A stretch of DNA of 64,000 nucleotides from Rhodanobacter sp. (GTDB taxonomy: Bacteria; Pseudomonadota; Gammaproteobacteria; Xanthomonadales; Rhodanobacteraceae). The position numbers and the translations under genes are program-made. Location: contig AP031382.1 in assembly GCA_040371205.1 (NCBI GenBank), positions 2,725,562 through 2,789,561 on the forward strand, written 5' to 3'. Of the stretch, positions 16,080 through 56,718 are shown one piece after another. The notes below the pieces were generated by a model. The model worked only from the letters and a program-made list of their open reading frames with translations, did no database searches and had not been told where the DNA came from. The stretch's first letter is position 1. Each line of letters opens with the position of its first letter.

Positions 16080-17162
16080 TCAGCCCAGCGCCAGCACGTC
16101 GCCCAGCAGCGCCTGCGCCGTGACCTCCGGCCCCGCGCCCGGCCCCTGGATCACCAGCGGCTGCGTGTGATAACGGGTGGTGGTGAGCGCGAACTGGTTG
16201 TCGGTGCCGTAGAGGCGCGCGGCGGGATGGTCGACAGGCACCTCGACCAGGCCGACGCGGGCATGGCCGCGCTGGTTGAGGCGCGCGAGGAAGCGCAGCA
16301 CGTTGCCGCGCGACTTCGCCTCGGCATGCAGCGCAGCAAGCGGCGCGTCGAGTTCCTCGAGCCGGGCGAGGAACTGCTCGGTGCCGATCGCGCGCAGCGG
16401 CTCGGGCACCAGGCTTTCCACCTGCACCTCGTCCCAGCCCAAGGCGAAGCCGGCGTTGCGGGCGAGGATCAGCAGCTTGCGCGCCACGTCTTCGCCGGAA
16501 AGGTCGGCGCGCGGATCGGGTTCGGTGTAGCCGCGCTCGCGCGCCTCGCGCAGCAGCGCGGAGAACGGGCGGCTGCCGTCGTAGCCGTTGAACAGGTAGC
16601 TGAGCGAACCGGAAAACACGCCTTCCAGCGTGAGCAGCGCATCGCCGCACTGCCGCAACCGCCTCAGCGTGGAAAGCACCGGCAAGCCGGCGCCGACGGT
16701 GGCCGAATCGCCATAGCGCGCGCCATGCGCCAGTGCCGCCTGCAGGGCGCGCCAACCTGGCAGCGCGCCGCCGCCCAACGACTTGTTGGCGGTGACCACG
16801 TGATAGCCGCGATCCAGCCACTCCGCGTGGCGCACGGCCAGCTCGGCGCTGGCGGTGGCATCGACGATCACCTTGACCGCCGCATCGCTGGCATCGAGCG
16901 CGGCAAGCAACGCTGCGTCGTCGCGTTGCACACCGGCACGCTTGAGCAGCTCGCGCAGGTTGCGCTCGGCAAGCCGCGCGGGCTCGGTCTGCTGGCGGCG
17001 CGAATTGGCCGCGCCCACCAGCCGCAACGCGGCGGCGGCCGGCGTGTTGAGCAGCTTGAGGAAGGCGCCGCCGACCACGCCGGTGCCCAACAACACCACG
17101 GCGGCACCGGATGCCGCCTCGCGCTGCGCCGCAGGCACGGCTTCGGCCAGCACCGCGCTCAT
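16080..17162 (-). CDS. hom: Homoserine dehydrogenase (monofunctional)
   Basis: 360 residues. Reduces aspartate semialdehyde to homoserine, supplying MetX. Residues 20-35 form the nucleotide-binding GTGVVGGAFLKLL; VVTANKSL, the catalytic-region GVFSGSLSYLFN and PDPRADLSGEDVARK follow. There is no aspartokinase domain and no ACT domain, so it resembles the homoserine dehydrogenase half of ThrA/MetL. The ATG at 17162 overlaps the metB stop by 4 bp, making it the third gene of metX-metB-hom. No terminator was recognised in the 3 bp to the convergent GST gene. Confidence 0.95.
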   Translation of the reverse strand: MSAVLAEAVPAAQREAASGAAVVLLGTGVVGGAFLKLLNTPAAAALRLVGAANSRRQQTEPARLAERNLRELLKRAGVQRDDAALLAALDASDAAVKVIVDATASAELAVRHAEWLDRGYHVVTANKSLGGGALPGWRALQAALAHGARYGDSATVGAGLPVLSTLRRLRQCGDALLTLEGVFSGSLSYLFNGYDGSRPFSALLREARERGYTEPDPRADLSGEDVARKLLILARNAGFALGWDEVQVESLVPEPLRAIGTEQFLARLEELDAPLAALHAEAKSRGNVLRFLARLNQRGHARVGLVEVPVDHPAARLYGTDNQFALTTTRYHTQPLVIQGPGAGPEVTAQALLGDVLALG

Positions 17163-18349
17163 GCGCCCACCGCGCGTTTGGGTTTGCCCGCGGCCGCCGC
17201 GCGCGCCAGCGCGGCGTCGAGGTCGCGCAGCAGGTCGTCGCCGTCCTCGATGCCCACCGACACGCGCAGCAGGGTGTCGGCGATGCCGGCCTTGCGGCGC
17301 GCTTCCGGCGCCATCGCGGCATGCGTCATGGTGGCGGGATGCGCGATCAGGCTTTCCACGCCGCCCAGCGACTCGGCCAGCGAGAAATAGTCCAGGCCTT
17401 CGACGAAGGCGGCGATCTGCGCCTCGTCGCCATCCAGCTCGAAGCTGAGCATCGCGCCGAAGCCCTGCTGCTGGCGTGCGGCCAGCGCGTGGTACGGGTT
17501 GGACGCAAGGCCGGGGTAGTACACCTTGCGCACGGCGGCATGGCCGTCCAGGTGCGCGGCGATGCGTTCGGCGTTCTCCTGGTGCTGGCGCAGGCGCACG
17601 CCCAGCGTGCGCAATCCGCGCAGGGTGAGGTAGCTGTCGAACGGCGCACCGGTGAGGCCGTTGCAGTTGCCCCACCACTTGAGCTGATCGGCCAGCTCCG
17701 GCGTGCGCGCCACCACGGCGCCGCCCACCACGTCGCTGTGGCCGTTGATGTACTTGGTGGTGGAGTGCACCACCACGTCCGCGCCCAGCGCCAGCGGCTG
17801 CTGCAGCGCAGGGGAGAGGAAGGTGTTGTCCACCACCACCAGCGCGCCCGCGGCGTGCGCCGCCTGCGCCACATGGCGGATGTCGGTGATGCGCAGCAGC
17901 GGGTTGGACGGCGTTTCCACCCACACCAGCGCGGGCTTGGCGGCGAGGCCGGCGGCCAGCGCGGCGGGGTCGGTGAGATCGGCGAACTGCACCGCGAAGC
18001 GGCCCTTCTTCGCCCAGGCGTCGAGGATGCGCCAGGTGCCGCCGTAGCAGTCGTGCGCGGCCAGCACCGTGGCACCGGCCGGCACCAGCTCCAGCGCCAG
18101 CGCCACCGCCGCCATGCCACTGGCGGTGACCACCGCGCCGGCGCCCTGCTCCAGTTCCGCCAGCGCGTTCGCCAGCAGGTCGCGCGTCGGGTTGCCGCTG
18201 CGCGAGTAGTCATAGGCGCGCTTCTTGCCGAAACCCTCGAAGCTGTAGTTGGTCGAGAGGTGCAGCGGCGGCACCACCGCGCCATGCTGGGTGTCGCTCT
18301 CGATGCCGGCGCGCACGGCGCGGGTGCTGGAGGCGGTGCGGTCGCTCAT
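17159..18349 (-). CDS. metB: Cystathionine gamma-synthase (Cys/Met PLP enzyme)
   Basis: 396 residues. PLP-dependent; joins O-acylhomoserine with cysteine to give cystathionine. Visible motifs are YDYSRSGNPTRD, the cofactor-binding VVDNTFLSP, and the PLP-Lys in HSTTKYINGHSD. Position between metX and hom supports gamma-synthase over the lyase or sulfhydrylase members of the same fold, which cannot be fully excluded from sequence. 45 bp from metX. Confidence 0.93.
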   Translation of the reverse strand: MSDRTASSTRAVRAGIESDTQHGAVVPPLHLSTNYSFEGFGKKRAYDYSRSGNPTRDLLANALAELEQGAGAVVTASGMAAVALALELVPAGATVLAAHDCYGGTWRILDAWAKKGRFAVQFADLTDPAALAAGLAAKPALVWVETPSNPLLRITDIRHVAQAAHAAGALVVVDNTFLSPALQQPLALGADVVVHSTTKYINGHSDVVGGAVVARTPELADQLKWWGNCNGLTGAPFDSYLTLRGLRTLGVRLRQHQENAERIAAHLDGHAAVRKVYYPGLASNPYHALAARQQQGFGAMLSFELDGDEAQIAAFVEGLDYFSLAESLGGVESLIAHPATMTHAAMAPEARRKAGIADTLLRVSVGIEDGDDLLRDLDAALARAAAAGKPKRAVGA

Positions 18350-18394: not shown

Positions 18395-19411
18395 TCAGCG
18401 CAGGGCTTCGCGCAGCAGCGGCGCGAGTTGCTCCGGCTCCTTCAGGAAGGCGTCGTGGCCGTAGGGCGACTCGACCACTTCCAGCGTGGCCGGGCCGCGC
18501 AGGCGGCGCTGCAATTCGCAGAGGTCGGCCAGCGGCACCAGGCGATCCGACGGAAAGCCGATCAAGGTGGCCGGCAGCGGCACCTGCTCGGGTTGCACAT
18601 CGTGCAGGTCGATGGACTCGGAGAGCGCCAGGAAGCGCTCGGCATCGAAGCGCTCGACGAAACGCCGCCCCTGGTGTTCGAGGTAGTCCTCGACCGGAAA
18701 ATGGAAACGCTCGCCGCGCCACTCCGGCTCGCCGGCGAAGCGGCGGCCGAACTCGGCGCTGCCGCGATAGGTGGTGATGGCGAGCTGGCGCGCCAGTGCC
18801 AGCGCCTCGTCCAGTTGGCCGCTGGACTGGCCCAACCGCACGATGCCGCGCTGCACGCTGCGCTGTGCGGTGGACAAGGGATGGGCGCGGTGCGCGCCGG
18901 CCAGCAGCACCAGGCGGTCGACACGCTGCACGTGCCGCGCGGCGAAGGCCAGCCCCACCATCGCGCCGTAGGACGAACCCACGAAGGCATGCGCCTTGAC
19001 GATGCCCAGCGCGTCGAGCAGCGCGGCCAAGGCGTCGGCCTGGTCCTCGCTGGAGATGGTGGCGACACCGAGGTCCGCCGGCGTGAGCCAGTCGATGGCC
19101 AGCACGCGGAAACGGGCGAGGTCGATCGCCGCATCCTCGGCCACCAGCGCCTGCCACCAGCCCGCCGCGGCGCCGGCCGGCGCGGTGACATCGCGGTTGG
19201 CGGAAATGCCGCCCTGCACGATCACGGTAGGCGCGTCCGGCGCGCCGCACCACAGGTAACGCACGTCGGCCTCGCGCGAAGCGCTGCCGTACTTCGGCTT
19301 GAACGCCAACCGCCGCGTACTGCGCTGCGCCCCGAGCGCGCGCGGCGCCGGCGACGGCCCCATCACGTCGGCGGCACAGGGAATGCAGGTTTCGGGCAGC
19401 GGCTGGCTCAT
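18395..19411 (-). CDS. metX: Homoserine O-acyltransferase, MetX fold (probably succinyl)
   Basis: 338 residues, alpha/beta-hydrolase fold. Acylates homoserine to activate it for MetB. The nucleophile elbow is GSSYGAMVGL, the late Asp lies in PSDRLVPLADL and the His in YGHDAFLKEP. MetX enzymes of Xanthomonas relatives are known to use succinyl-CoA, which would fit a following cystathionine gamma-synthase; the acyl donor here is inferred. The ATG at 19411 sits 4 nt after GGAGAGAC, and that ribosome site lies in a hairpin downstream of a SAM-I riboswitch. First gene of metX-metB-hom. Confidence 0.95.
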   Translation of the reverse strand: MSQPLPETCIPCAADVMGPSPAPRALGAQRSTRRLAFKPKYGSASREADVRYLWCGAPDAPTVIVQGGISANRDVTAPAGAAAGWWQALVAEDAAIDLARFRVLAIDWLTPADLGVATISSEDQADALAALLDALGIVKAHAFVGSSYGAMVGLAFAARHVQRVDRLVLLAGAHRAHPLSTAQRSVQRGIVRLGQSSGQLDEALALARQLAITTYRGSAEFGRRFAGEPEWRGERFHFPVEDYLEHQGRRFVERFDAERFLALSESIDLHDVQPEQVPLPATLIGFPSDRLVPLADLCELQRRLRGPATLEVVESPYGHDAFLKEPEQLAPLLREALR

Positions 19412-19415
19412 GCGT

Positions 19416-19451
19416 CTCTCCGTTCGGCATCGTCCTGCGGATGCCGGAGAG
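19416..19451 (-). promoter_or_regulatory. Hairpin burying the metX ribosome binding site
   Basis: In the transcript CTCTCC followed by GGCAT (19451 to 19441) can pair with ATGCC and GGAGAG (19430 to 19416), with a four-base bulge. The pairing covers the metX Shine-Dalgarno sequence. Placed between the riboswitch and the start codon, it looks like a translational expression platform. Pairing is seen in the sequence; the switching mechanism is inferred. Confidence 0.7.
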
Positions 19452-19490
19452 GAGCCCCGCGCGAATACGGCACGGAAGCCGCTGCGCAAG

Positions 19491-19606
19491 CCGCCCATCT
19501 GCCGGGGCGCCGTTGCGCCGCCGCAGGAGTTGGCACCGTCGCGGAACATTCCGCAGGTTGCCCCGGCTTCAAAGGGCCTGTCCCTCAGCCGGTCTCGATG
19601 AGTGGG
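19491..19606 (-). ncRNA. SAM-I (S-box) riboswitch in the metX leader
   Basis: Reading the minus strand, CTCATC (5' P1) and GAGACC are followed by the core GCTGAGGGACAGGCCC, TTTGAAGCC, GGGGCAACC, a P3 helix GCGGAA/TTCCGC, GGTGCCAACTCCTGC, a P4 helix GGCGC/GCGCC, and AGATGG (3' P1). This matches the conserved S-box core almost base for base, including both strands of P1. It lies just downstream of the predicted transcription start and about 80 nt before the metX start. Expected to switch metX-metB-hom off when S-adenosylmethionine binds. Confidence 0.95.
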
Positions 19607-19610
19607 ACGG

Positions 19611-19639
19611 ATTCTGCATATGACTTTCCAACATGTCAA
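19611..19639 (-). promoter_or_regulatory. Sigma70-type promoter of metX-metB-hom
   Basis: A perfect -35 TTGACA (19639 to 19634) and a -10 CAGAAT (19616 to 19611) are separated by 17 bp. Transcription would start near 19604, at the 5' edge of the riboswitch. Four met boxes begin 1 bp upstream of the -35 element. Confidence 0.7.
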
Positions 19640-19640
19640 T

Positions 19641-19672
19641 AGACGTCTAAACGTCTGGACGTTCATATGTCC
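19641..19672. promoter_or_regulatory. Four tandem MetJ boxes upstream of metX
   Basis: Read on the plus strand in 8-bp steps the sequence is AGACGTCT, AAACGTCT, GGACGTTC, ATATGTCC. The first matches the MetJ consensus AGACGTCT at all 8 positions, the second at 7, the others at 5. Contiguous 8-bp spacing is the hallmark of MetJ operators, where dimers bind side by side. A metJ gene is present at 56022-56543 and has similar boxes upstream of it. Confidence 0.88.
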
Positions 19673-19878
19673 ATTCGTGATTTGCGATTCACGCAACATC
19701 GACAAGGTTCCGATGGCGGACTTGCGCCGCCGCCATCCGCAAGCAGCGCAGGGCGTGGATACCCAAGTACGCGCCAGCCCGTCCAGGCGCGCGCCGTTCG
19801 ACAGGAGCGGCGCCCCGCCCGCATTCCGCCTTCATCCAGCCAGTGTCGCTTCATCCGCGAACTGCTAGCTTTGTGCGG
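19673..19878. other. Rest of the intergenic region metX / 2OG oxygenase
   Basis: 206 bp upstream of the plus-strand oxygenase. A short inverted repeat TTGCG-N5-CGCAA lies at 19682-19696. I see no confident promoter; an upstream ATG at 19843 in frame with the oxygenase adds only 12 residues with no family support. Confidence 0.4.
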
Positions 19879-20598
19879 ATGAACCCCACCACCCCGCCCG
19901 ACCTGCATGCCGCGCTGCGGCACGACGGATTCGCCTTCGTCACCGCCGAGGCGATGCGGAATCTGCTGGACACCCCCACGCTCGCCGACTGGCCCGCGTT
20001 CGCCGCGAGCTGGAACCGCCTCGGCGACGACAGCTACCTTGCCGCGCGTGGCCGCCATCGCCGCCGCCGGCACGCCGTGTTCACTGCCGATGCCGACGGC
20101 GCGATCCGCCGCGAACCGCACCAGCCGCATTACCAGAGCCTGGCCTACAACAGCCTGCAGGGCGGCATCGAGCGCTGGTTCGAACCGATGGAGCCGGCGG
20201 TCGCGGACGGCGCCAGCCTGCTTCGCATCCTGGCCTTTTGCCGCGACGGCTTCGGCGCGCTGGCGCCGCAGGCGCGGAGCTGGCGCATCGAGGTGCACCA
20301 GTTCCGCATCGAGGCGCGCACCGGGGCGGCCGGCGAGCCCACCCCCGAAGGCGTGCACCGCGACGGCGTGGACTACGTGCTGGTGCTGCTGGTCGACCGC
20401 GAGAACATCGAACGCGGCACCACCACCATCCACGCCCCGGACGGCCGCGAACTGGGCCAGTTCACCCTTGCCCGCACCTTCGACGCGGCCCTGCTGGACG
20501 ACCGCCGCGTGTTCCACGGCGTCACCCCGGTGGTGCCGAAGGACCCGGCGCAAGCCGCGCACCGCGACGTGCTGGTGGTGACGTTCAAGGCCGCCTGA
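19879..20598 (+). CDS. 2OG-Fe(II) dioxygenase family protein
   Basis: 239 residues. It resembles the 2OG-Fe dioxygenase family that includes bacterial free amino acid hydroxylases. The metal-binding pair is visible as HRDG within EGVHRDGVDYVLV (His-x-Asp), and a distal His in FHGVTPV sits near the C-terminus before an Arg-containing strand. Substrate unknown; hydroxylation of a free amino acid is a family-based guess. The ATG at 19879 follows TGCGG and fits the N-terminal start of the domain. 26 bp upstream of the creatininase-like gene, so possibly cotranscribed. Confidence 0.8.
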   Translation: MNPTTPPDLHAALRHDGFAFVTAEAMRNLLDTPTLADWPAFAASWNRLGDDSYLAARGRHRRRRHAVFTADADGAIRREPHQPHYQSLAYNSLQGGIERWFEPMEPAVADGASLLRILAFCRDGFGALAPQARSWRIEVHQFRIEARTGAAGEPTPEGVHRDGVDYVLVLLVDRENIERGTTTIHAPDGRELGQFTLARTFDAALLDDRRVFHGVTPVVPKDPAQAAHRDVLVVTFKAA

Positions 20599-56021: not shown

Positions 56022-56543
56022 TTACTTCTTGGCAGCGGTCTTGACGGCCTTCACCACCTTGGCGGCGGCAGGCTTCTTCGCAGCAGCTTTCTTGGCTGCC
56101 GGCTTCTTGGCAACCTTCTTTGCAACAGCCTTCTTCGCGGCCGCCGGCTTCTTGGCGGCAGCCTTCTTCGGAGCGGCCTTCTTGGCAACCTTCTTCACGG
56201 CAGCCTTCTTGGCGACCGGCTTCTTGGCGGCGGCCTTCTTGGCGACCTTCTTCACAGCGGCCTTCTTGGCAGCCGGCTTCTTTGCAGCGGATTTCTTGGC
56301 AGTGGCCATGGTTCGTCTTAGCTCCTCATCGGTTGGCAGTGGTTGCCCAGTAAAAGCGTGGAGGAACGCCTCGACCAGCAAGTCGCTGTTCGTGGCATGC
56401 CTCAAATTCTTCACCTGACGTTCGGTACGCAGGTCGGACAGCGTTCGCAAAACATGGAGCGGAATCGAAACGGTGATCTTGCGTACTGCATTCGCTTTCT
56501 CGCCGTGCTCCACGTAAGGCTTGATGAATTTCGGTGATGCCAT
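56022..56543 (-). CDS. metJ: Met repressor MetJ fused to a histone H1-like tail
   Basis: 173 residues. Residues 1-78 are plain MetJ: PYVEHGEK, the DNA-contacting strand RKITVSIP, helix A, and the strongly conserved [25 protein letters not shown] that carries helix B and the SAM-binding residues. E. coli MetJ continues for about 27 more residues (helix C); here these are missing. Instead residues 79-173 are a Lys/Ala repeat ([16 protein letters not shown] and similar) with 37 Lys in 95 residues, like bacterial histone H1-type tails. The tail begins with its own Met (ATG at 56309) with AGGAG 12 nt before it, so a separate H1-like product is possible. Tandem met boxes lie upstream at 56695-56718. 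Confidence 0.93.
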
Positions 56544-56694: not shown

Positions 56695-56718
56695 GGATGT
56701 CTGGACGTCCAAACGTCG
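56695..56718. promoter_or_regulatory. Three tandem met boxes upstream of metJ
   Basis: In 8-bp steps on the plus strand: GGATGTCT, GGACGTCC, AAACGTCG, each matching the AGACGTCT consensus at 6 of 8 positions. They lie about 150 bp upstream of the metJ start and overlap a possible -35 element for metJ. Suggests autoregulation, as in enterobacteria. Confidence 0.7.

Follow-up and report, generated by a model that had tools for sequence, protein, structure and literature searches.

Predicted MetJ operator boxes stacked on a SAM-I riboswitch leader at the metX-metB-hom operon of Rhodanobacter and its family

Can a single methionine operon be subject both to the repressor MetJ at its promoter and to an S-adenosylmethionine (SAM) riboswitch in its leader, and would both of these layers read SAM? 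The question is raised by a stretch of 64,000 nucleotides (nt) from Rhodanobacter sp. (contig AP031382.1, positions 2,725,562 to 2,789,561; the whole stretch is called the window hereafter), for which a first-pass annotation had placed met boxes and a SAM-I (S-box) riboswitch on one metX-metB-hom promoter and leader and had read the operon as being controlled by SAM twice. The arrangement itself was borne out by our analysis, and we consider it likely that the operon is under two-layer feedback, with MetJ acting at initiation and the SAM-I riboswitch at translation. The part of the earlier reading that appears weakest is 'SAM twice', because Glu39 and Arg42 of MetJ are both replaced in the clade of the window.

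Three genes form one operon on the minus strand, namely metX (18395..19411; homoserine O-succinyltransferase, 338 amino acids (aa); NCBIfam NF006449, 365.5 bits with a cut-off of 296), metB (17159..18349; cystathionine gamma-synthase, 396 aa; TIGR02080, 603.6 bits with a cut-off of 504.55) and hom (16080..17162; homoserine dehydrogenase, 360 aa; PF00742, 153.9 bits with a cut-off of 22.9); metB and hom share a 4-base overlap. The closest named relatives of metX are up to 94% identical and Rhodanobacter is among them. Its start codon is at 19411-19409, preceded by the Shine-Dalgarno (SD) sequence GGAGAG at 19421-19416, both at the lower edge of the first-pass interval (19409-19672). The SAM-I aptamer lies on the same strand at 19492..19604 and matches RF00162 with 80.9 bits over the full model (1-108 of 108; gathering score 44.4, E 1.8e-17), which is the only such match in the whole genome, with standard pairs at 32 of 33 consensus positions. 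As 80 nt separate the end of the aptamer from the metX start codon, the S-box lies in the leader of a methionine gene. A promoter scan found a -35 element TTGACA (19634..19639, minus strand) and, after a 17-base spacer, a -10 element CAGAAT (19611..19616, minus strand); the combination scores 10 of 12 as against a shuffle mean of 0.1. Judged by this spacing, transcription would start at about 19604, where the aptamer begins, giving a predicted leader of 193 nt.

Upstream of this promoter, and reading toward metX, lie four tandem met boxes, GGACATAT GAACGTCC AGACGTTT AGACGTCT (19641..19672, minus strand; 19672-19641 in the direction of transcription), forming a putative MetJ operator, followed by a single A and then by the -35 element at 19639-19634. 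Against the met-box consensus, which we take to be AGACGTCT, the two proximal boxes match two consecutive copies at 15 of 16 positions, while the two distal boxes are weak (5 of 8 each, counted by eye). The proximal pair is the sole match with at most 3 mismatches in the 64-kb window; shuffled windows contain 0.09 matches on average and at least one match in 8 of 100 cases. A stricter pattern, GACGTYTRGACGTYT, which was composed after the site was known, matches once in the window and in none of 100 shuffles.

Box scores were then compared across relatives, taking for each leader the best match to two copies of the consensus (maximum 16) in the 110-120 bases upstream of the S-box. All 31 loci of a first set, comprising the window and the 30 best S-box matches from the search of its family, Rhodanobacteraceae, score 13-16, whereas shuffles (100 per locus) peak at 10-14. 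Also, all 20 leaders from further family genomes picked to represent other genera score at least 13. The two sets cover 51 genomes and 24 of the 26 sampled genera, all except those labelled g9 and g15. A third set consisted of 80 named metX loci. An S-box lies upstream of metX in 78 of these, the exceptions being L193, which starts inside metX, and L199; 72 of the 78 score at least 13 and the remaining six score 7-12, the first-order Markov null for a score of at least 13 in this set being 0.0003. In locus L199, which carries the label Gemmatimonadetes, SAM_alpha (SAM-II) takes the place of SAM-I in the leader, and the genome has no MetJ match. The first-pass annotation had suggested following the co-occurrence of met boxes and RF00162 matches upstream of metX across the order, and here it holds in 51 of 51 family leaders and in the 72 named loci, as against none of 20 leaders of a sister family (f2), in which all 20 box scores are 9 or lower.

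MetJ was searched for in 36 of the genomes of the 80 named loci. It was found in 32, of which 30 carry boxes scoring at least 13, and was not found in four (L198, L199, L200, L202), of which the three with an S-box all score 10 or lower (9, 10 and 7). The boxes thus coincide with the presence of the metJ gene; this coincidence is observed, as are the elements, their positions and their conservation, and binding and repression by MetJ are predicted. The same tendency appears genome-wide, where tandem boxes number 141 against 83 for the control across 12 family genomes and 11 against 60 across 12 f2 genomes. Anchored on TTGAC once duplicates and leaders without TTGAC in range had been dropped, an information profile of 89 of the 94 leaders gives a mean of 1.25 bits per base across 24 box positions as against 0.06 at positions -60 to -37; the invariance of the -35 element in this profile is true by construction. 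This profile also bears on a reading in which the boxes serve, instead of or besides the met operon, the divergent 2-oxoglutarate-Fe (2OG-Fe) oxygenase gene that begins at about 19879 on the plus strand. The intergenic region is indeed common to the met operon and this PF10014 gene, but in the 89 leaders the distance between the boxes and the -35 of the met operon is constant and the sequence farther upstream is unconserved, which makes the oxygenase an extremely improbable target.

How widely the two regulators occur together was examined in three samples: 197 genomes of the family in 26 genera, 299 genomes of the order and 276 of the class. Co-occurrence in the family and order samples is our own tally of separate S-box and MetJ searches, and the large RNA searches were run with stricter filters by which weak matches are lost, so that an S-box recorded as absent may in some cases have been missed. 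In the family sample the S-box was found in 180 genomes and MetJ in 193 (192 of these above the curated cut-off), each in all 26 genera; 178 genomes have both, 15 have MetJ only, 2 have the S-box only and 2 have neither. Stacked met boxes and S-box are on this evidence a standing architecture of Rhodanobacteraceae. The order sample contained the S-box in 217 genomes and MetJ in 96, with both present in 76 Rhodanobacteraceae genomes. Outside this family only 1 of 20 MetJ genomes in the order sample has an S-box and 1 of 141 S-box genomes has MetJ, while in the class sample (S-box in 9, MetJ in 3) the two coincide only in the genome of the window. The rarity of co-occurrence in the samples examined indicates that S-box and MetJ are mostly alternatives outside the family. 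The first-pass view of the two as alternatives in different lineages fits the order sample outside Rhodanobacteraceae.

As to how the riboswitch would act, no terminator-like site was found at 19300-19900, and intrinsic termination was rejected as the platform on this ground. Folding instead places the metX SD in a strong hairpin (19416..19451, minus strand), in which an anti-SD CTCTCC pairs with GGAGAG around the loop CCGCAGGA at 19440-19433. Folds with the aptamer formed support occlusion of the SD, and the leader looks translational, with its SD held in a hairpin. The loop sequence CCGCAGG-CGATG recurs in relatives that were selected by this loop, while the register of the stem shifts. A MAFFT alignment of the window with 39 of 43 distinct loop-motif platforms (L160, L151, L156 and L163 were left out) has invariant loop columns that are partly due to this selection; it also mixes two SD-stem registers and misplaces L128.

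The platform loop CCGCAGG (19433-19440) is complementary to the aptamer segment CCUGCGG (19521..19527, minus strand), as seen from sequence complement and folding, and might form an antisequestor. The idea that the complement is longer than chance was rejected, since observed and shuffled lengths overlap and the longer tail belongs to the shuffles. What is enriched is the motif CGCAGG or CCGCAG, present in 66 of 94 family leaders as against 11% of Markov-shuffled platforms (5 of 24 leaders of the f2 group as against 7% in shuffles). As only the motif is enriched, and not the length of the complement, the antisequestor stays an idea. A fold in which it is enforced leaves 4 of the 6 SD bases free and gains 4.5 kcal/mol over one with the aptamer enforced, but folding without constraints gives a structure more favourable than either, in which the SD hairpin persists.

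It may be asked at this point if MetJ alone regulates the operon and the S-box is a remnant. Such a view would draw on the 17 of 197 family genomes without a detected S-box, 10 of them in genus g9, where 9 of the 10 have MetJ (one weakly), and on the rarity of MetJ and S-box coexisting outside Rhodanobacteraceae. Neutral decay, however, would be expected to erase the S-box in many genera, yet the aptamer is intact and present in all 26 sampled genera, and its platform motif is enriched as given above; we regard a vestigial riboswitch as very unlikely. The ten g9 genomes in question (G075, G088, G100, G122, G151, G160, G169, G177, G184 and G191; nine with a MetJ match, that of G151 only at E 8.6e-4) offer a natural MetJ-only comparison.

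In the two-layer reading that we prefer, MetJ would bind the tandem met boxes beside the -35 element and block initiation. The mRNA would begin at, or close to, the 5' end of the SAM-I riboswitch, which in its SAM-bound form would keep the metX SD in the hairpin and would thereby block translation of transcripts that escape MetJ. Several observations weigh against this. MetJ is present without a detected S-box in the 15 family genomes counted above, where the stricter RNA filters lose weak matches, and among the MetJ-positive named loci L179 and L192 have poor boxes (11 and 12 of 16). Genome-wide, boxes are not above the control in 3 of the 12 family genomes (G013, G016, G044). When folding is left unconstrained, stems P1 and P4 of the aptamer are broken and yet the SD hairpin persists, so that folding by itself does not account for the ON state. 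The promoter of the corresponding Xanthomonas operon was unresponsive to methionine (PMC6230763), and hence a conserved palindrome over an S-box is no proof of methionine-responsive transcription. MetJ binding and regulation in Rhodanobacteraceae are predictions, as are the two different affinities that the first pass proposed for the layers, and the MetJ of the window has Leu39 and Glu42 (E. coli numbering) at modelled SAM contacts, a point taken up below.

The puzzle of the sequestered SD has a counterpart in the SAM-I leader of Xanthomonas campestris (SAM-I Xcc), where it is explained by uncharged initiator tRNA. That leader acts mainly on translation (PMC7270179, PMC6230763) and its platform binds uncharged tRNA-fMet (PMC7270179). 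It resembles the present one in belonging to the corresponding three-gene operon, in riboswitch class, in length (190 nt against the predicted 193 nt) and in its translational platform; it differs in that metJ is reported missing and the promoter unresponsive, as against met boxes and MetJ here. By analogy, the Rhodanobacter leader might also bind uncharged initiator tRNA, so that the operon would combine MetJ, SAM read by the riboswitch and tRNA as a third input. The operon and the position of the leader correspond to SAM-I Xcc, and the free fold resembles the published SAM-free state (PMC7270179) in sequestering the SD, but the recurrent platform sequences differ, being CCGCAGG-CGATG here and CTCGATGG in many f2 leaders (by eye). 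We hold a third input of this kind to be unlikely.

The repressor itself is encoded in the same window, by metJ (56022..56543, minus strand; 173 aa; PF01340, NF003622), the single MetJ gene of the genome. Its core (residues 5-89) scores above curated cut-offs, reaching 120.5 bits against a cut-off of 25 when the genome was searched and 125.6 bits against a cut-off of 110, and is identical to E. coli MetJ at 52 of 75 positions. From about residue 78 a lysine- and alanine-rich tail (56022..56312, minus strand; from alignment and sub-cut-off models) replaces the C-terminal part of E. coli MetJ. The H1-tailed variant described in the first pass is thus recovered, and the tail is H1-like in composition only: histone H1-like models miss their cut-offs on it (NF038053 with 26.2 against 80, PF07382 with 28.3 against 40). 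We surveyed the 76 family MetJs in the Rhodanobacteraceae share of the order sample, and all 76 have the basic tail and reach a stop codon (74 by script, G054 and G004 by reading). No such tail was seen in five loci read, out of 13, of another family with MetJ (f9). Lys23 and Thr25, which we take to be DNA-contact residues, are kept in the MetJ of the window, as is Arg40 (segments RKITVSIP and SDLRTERQ). In E. coli MetJ, Arg40 is a DNA contact (PMC2775130).

The SAM contacts present a different picture. Glu39 and Arg42 of E. coli MetJ show strong interactions with the SAM adenosyl group in a simulation study, which predicts weaker SAM co-repression when the two are mutated (PMC2775130). Both residues are kept in 47 of the 76 family MetJs and both are replaced in 28, with Arg42 alone replaced in one; Luteibacter (L256) is an example of a relative with both residues kept. 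The doubly replaced proteins are those of all sampled members of five genera, including all 5 sampled from the genus of the window. MetJ here may consequently respond to SAM poorly, in a different manner or not at all, which lowers the likelihood of SAM co-repression in the Rhodanobacter clade; given the curated models and the boxes, the protein is still assigned to MetJ. The natural variants make the SAM-contact residues of MetJ testable.

Could it then be that MetJ of this clade has lost or changed its response to SAM and represses constitutively or through another signal, with the lysine-rich tail supplying affinity and the riboswitch alone reading SAM? The replacement of both residues across five whole sampled genera and the prediction from the simulation speak for this, as does the conservation of the met boxes within the clade (for example in the window and in the loci L030 and L032 of its genus), by which DNA binding has probably been kept. 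On the other hand, Lys23, Thr25, Arg40, Arg43, Asn53 and Glu59 are kept in the MetJ of the window, which may leave the fold and a large part of the pocket functional, and the substitutions may retune SAM binding instead of abolishing it. Also, the change of Thr37 to Ser is found in nearly all family MetJs examined and is not specific to the clade, and the contact residues come from a single simulation study (PMC2775130). We therefore treat such a division of labour as possible though rather doubtful, and keep to feedback at both layers as the preferred reading.

The sister family f2 shows what may stand in place of the met boxes. It is probably Xanthomonadaceae (now Lysobacteraceae at NCBI), because L202, a named member of Xanthomonadaceae, shows the same promoter. 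No f2 genome is among the MetJ matches in the order and class samples, while the S-box is kept. This outcome agrees with PMC6230763, in which Xanthomonas campestris 8004 is said to lack metJ, rather than with the introduction of PMC7270179, according to which the MetR/MetJ system appears conserved in Gram-negatives, Xanthomonas included. In the met-box position the f2 leaders carry palindrome variants, ATCGCTTCATNNGNATGAAGCGAT, that run into the same TTGAC. Of the 24 leaders that make up the f2 group (the 20 f2 leaders L223-L242 with L197, L198, L200 and L202), 23 have the form ATC-18-GATTGAC, the exception being L198, as against none of 94 other leaders. Leyn and colleagues describe for SamR a 24-bp palindrome with predicted targets that include metB, metX2 and hom in Xanthomonadales (PMC4239095). 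As the 24-bp ATC...GAT form is that described for the SamR site, the f2 palindrome is a probable SamR operator; the SamR regulon shares with the present case the predicted target genes and the place of the operator, and differs from that of MetJ in both protein and operator. With at most 3 mismatches the palindrome matches in 12 of 12 f2 genomes and in 1 of 10 family genomes (G022, away from the met operon), and no such site was found in the genome of the window, for which the SamR gene itself was not searched. In G022, which belongs to the genus of the window, the SamR-like palindrome (L273, near 1500) stands directly before a leader that by eye resembles a cobalamin riboswitch.

With met boxes in Rhodanobacteraceae and the palindrome in f2, different repressor operators lie over one retained riboswitch. 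We infer that the operator of one repressor was exchanged, in one direction or the other, for that of the second while the riboswitch was retained. A longer scenario would have the SAM-I leader retained under a SamR-like operator, as in f2, or a MetJ operator, after which MetJ of the Rhodanobacter clade would have lost its SAM contacts and kept the H1-like tail, so that the layers now read different signals. We find this doubtful; if true, MetJ would read another signal or set a constant brake and the RNA would read SAM. The comparison has value, as one family has a basic-tailed MetJ stacked throughout on a SAM-I leader and its sister has another operator over a like leader, so that genomes with both layers, with RNA only and with MetJ only provide a natural comparison for the addition of a protein repressor to a riboswitch.

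The first-pass annotation knew of no such stacking. For MetJ with SAM-I this stands, since no report of MetJ boxes and SAM-I on one operon, nor of a SAM riboswitch in Rhodanobacter, was found in the open-licence literature; as for stacking in general, regulators over riboswitches have precedents. At btuB, tested in Yersinia (PMC3228920), met boxes are combined with a B12 riboswitch; there too a MetJ operator lies where a riboswitch leader starts, but the two layers read different ligands, and the authors remark that none of the other genes they studied seemed to be under riboswitch control as well. In Oceanicaulis alexandrii, SahR and SAM_alpha are predicted on one operon, hom-metXC (PMC4239095), again a repressor and a SAM riboswitch on methionine genes, but in one genome and with SahR and SAM-II rather than MetJ and SAM-I. 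E. coli mntP combines MntR with a manganese riboswitch (PMC11647493), which resembles the present case in having a transcription factor and a translational riboswitch with the same ligand on one transcript, and differs in being metal activation and not SAM repression. E. coli MetJ (1cma; PMC3228920) shares the core and the tandem 8-bp boxes; the Rhodanobacter MetJ differs from it in the tail, in Leu39 and Glu42, and in having its boxes over a SAM riboswitch. A study of methionine regulation in Proteobacteria placed MetJ in six other gammaproteobacterial groups and in 0 of 4 Xanthomonadales genomes, saw no sign of MetJ transfer to other lineages and had SAM-I outside its reconstructed regulons (PMC4239095). 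For Rhodanobacter, MetJ is mentioned once, as a putative repressor (PMC12146267). The pairing of MetJ boxes with SAM-I, called new here as no literature report of it was found, thus appears new against the known regulator-riboswitch stacks; it is real and family-wide at the level of sequence, with its function predicted.

Beyond the met operon, tandem boxes with at most 3 mismatches occur at 16 places in the genome of the window as against 4 for a reversed control. Of 15 places examined, 7 lie at six promoters of methionine, sulfur or aspartate-family genes (met operon, metQ, aspartokinase, a second homoserine dehydrogenase, cysJ and a CysB-like gene), and the other 8 look incidental. The neighbouring genes were called by GC content at codon positions, longest open reading frames being misleading in this GC-rich genome; those truncated at the end of a locus or below the model cut-off were named by best family match, and the neighbours cysG and a transporter by eye. 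The boxes at cysJ, aspartokinase, metQ, the CysB-like gene and the second homoserine dehydrogenase (L112, L117, L119, L120, L121) suggest a possible MetJ regulon that extends into sulfate assimilation and the aspartate family. Weak tandem boxes (12 of 16, from a box scan without a null; 56695..56718, minus strand) also lie 175-152 nt upstream of metJ, where autoregulation is possible, and 41 of the 76 family metJ genes score at least 12 of 16 within 350 nt upstream, a count for which no null was computed.

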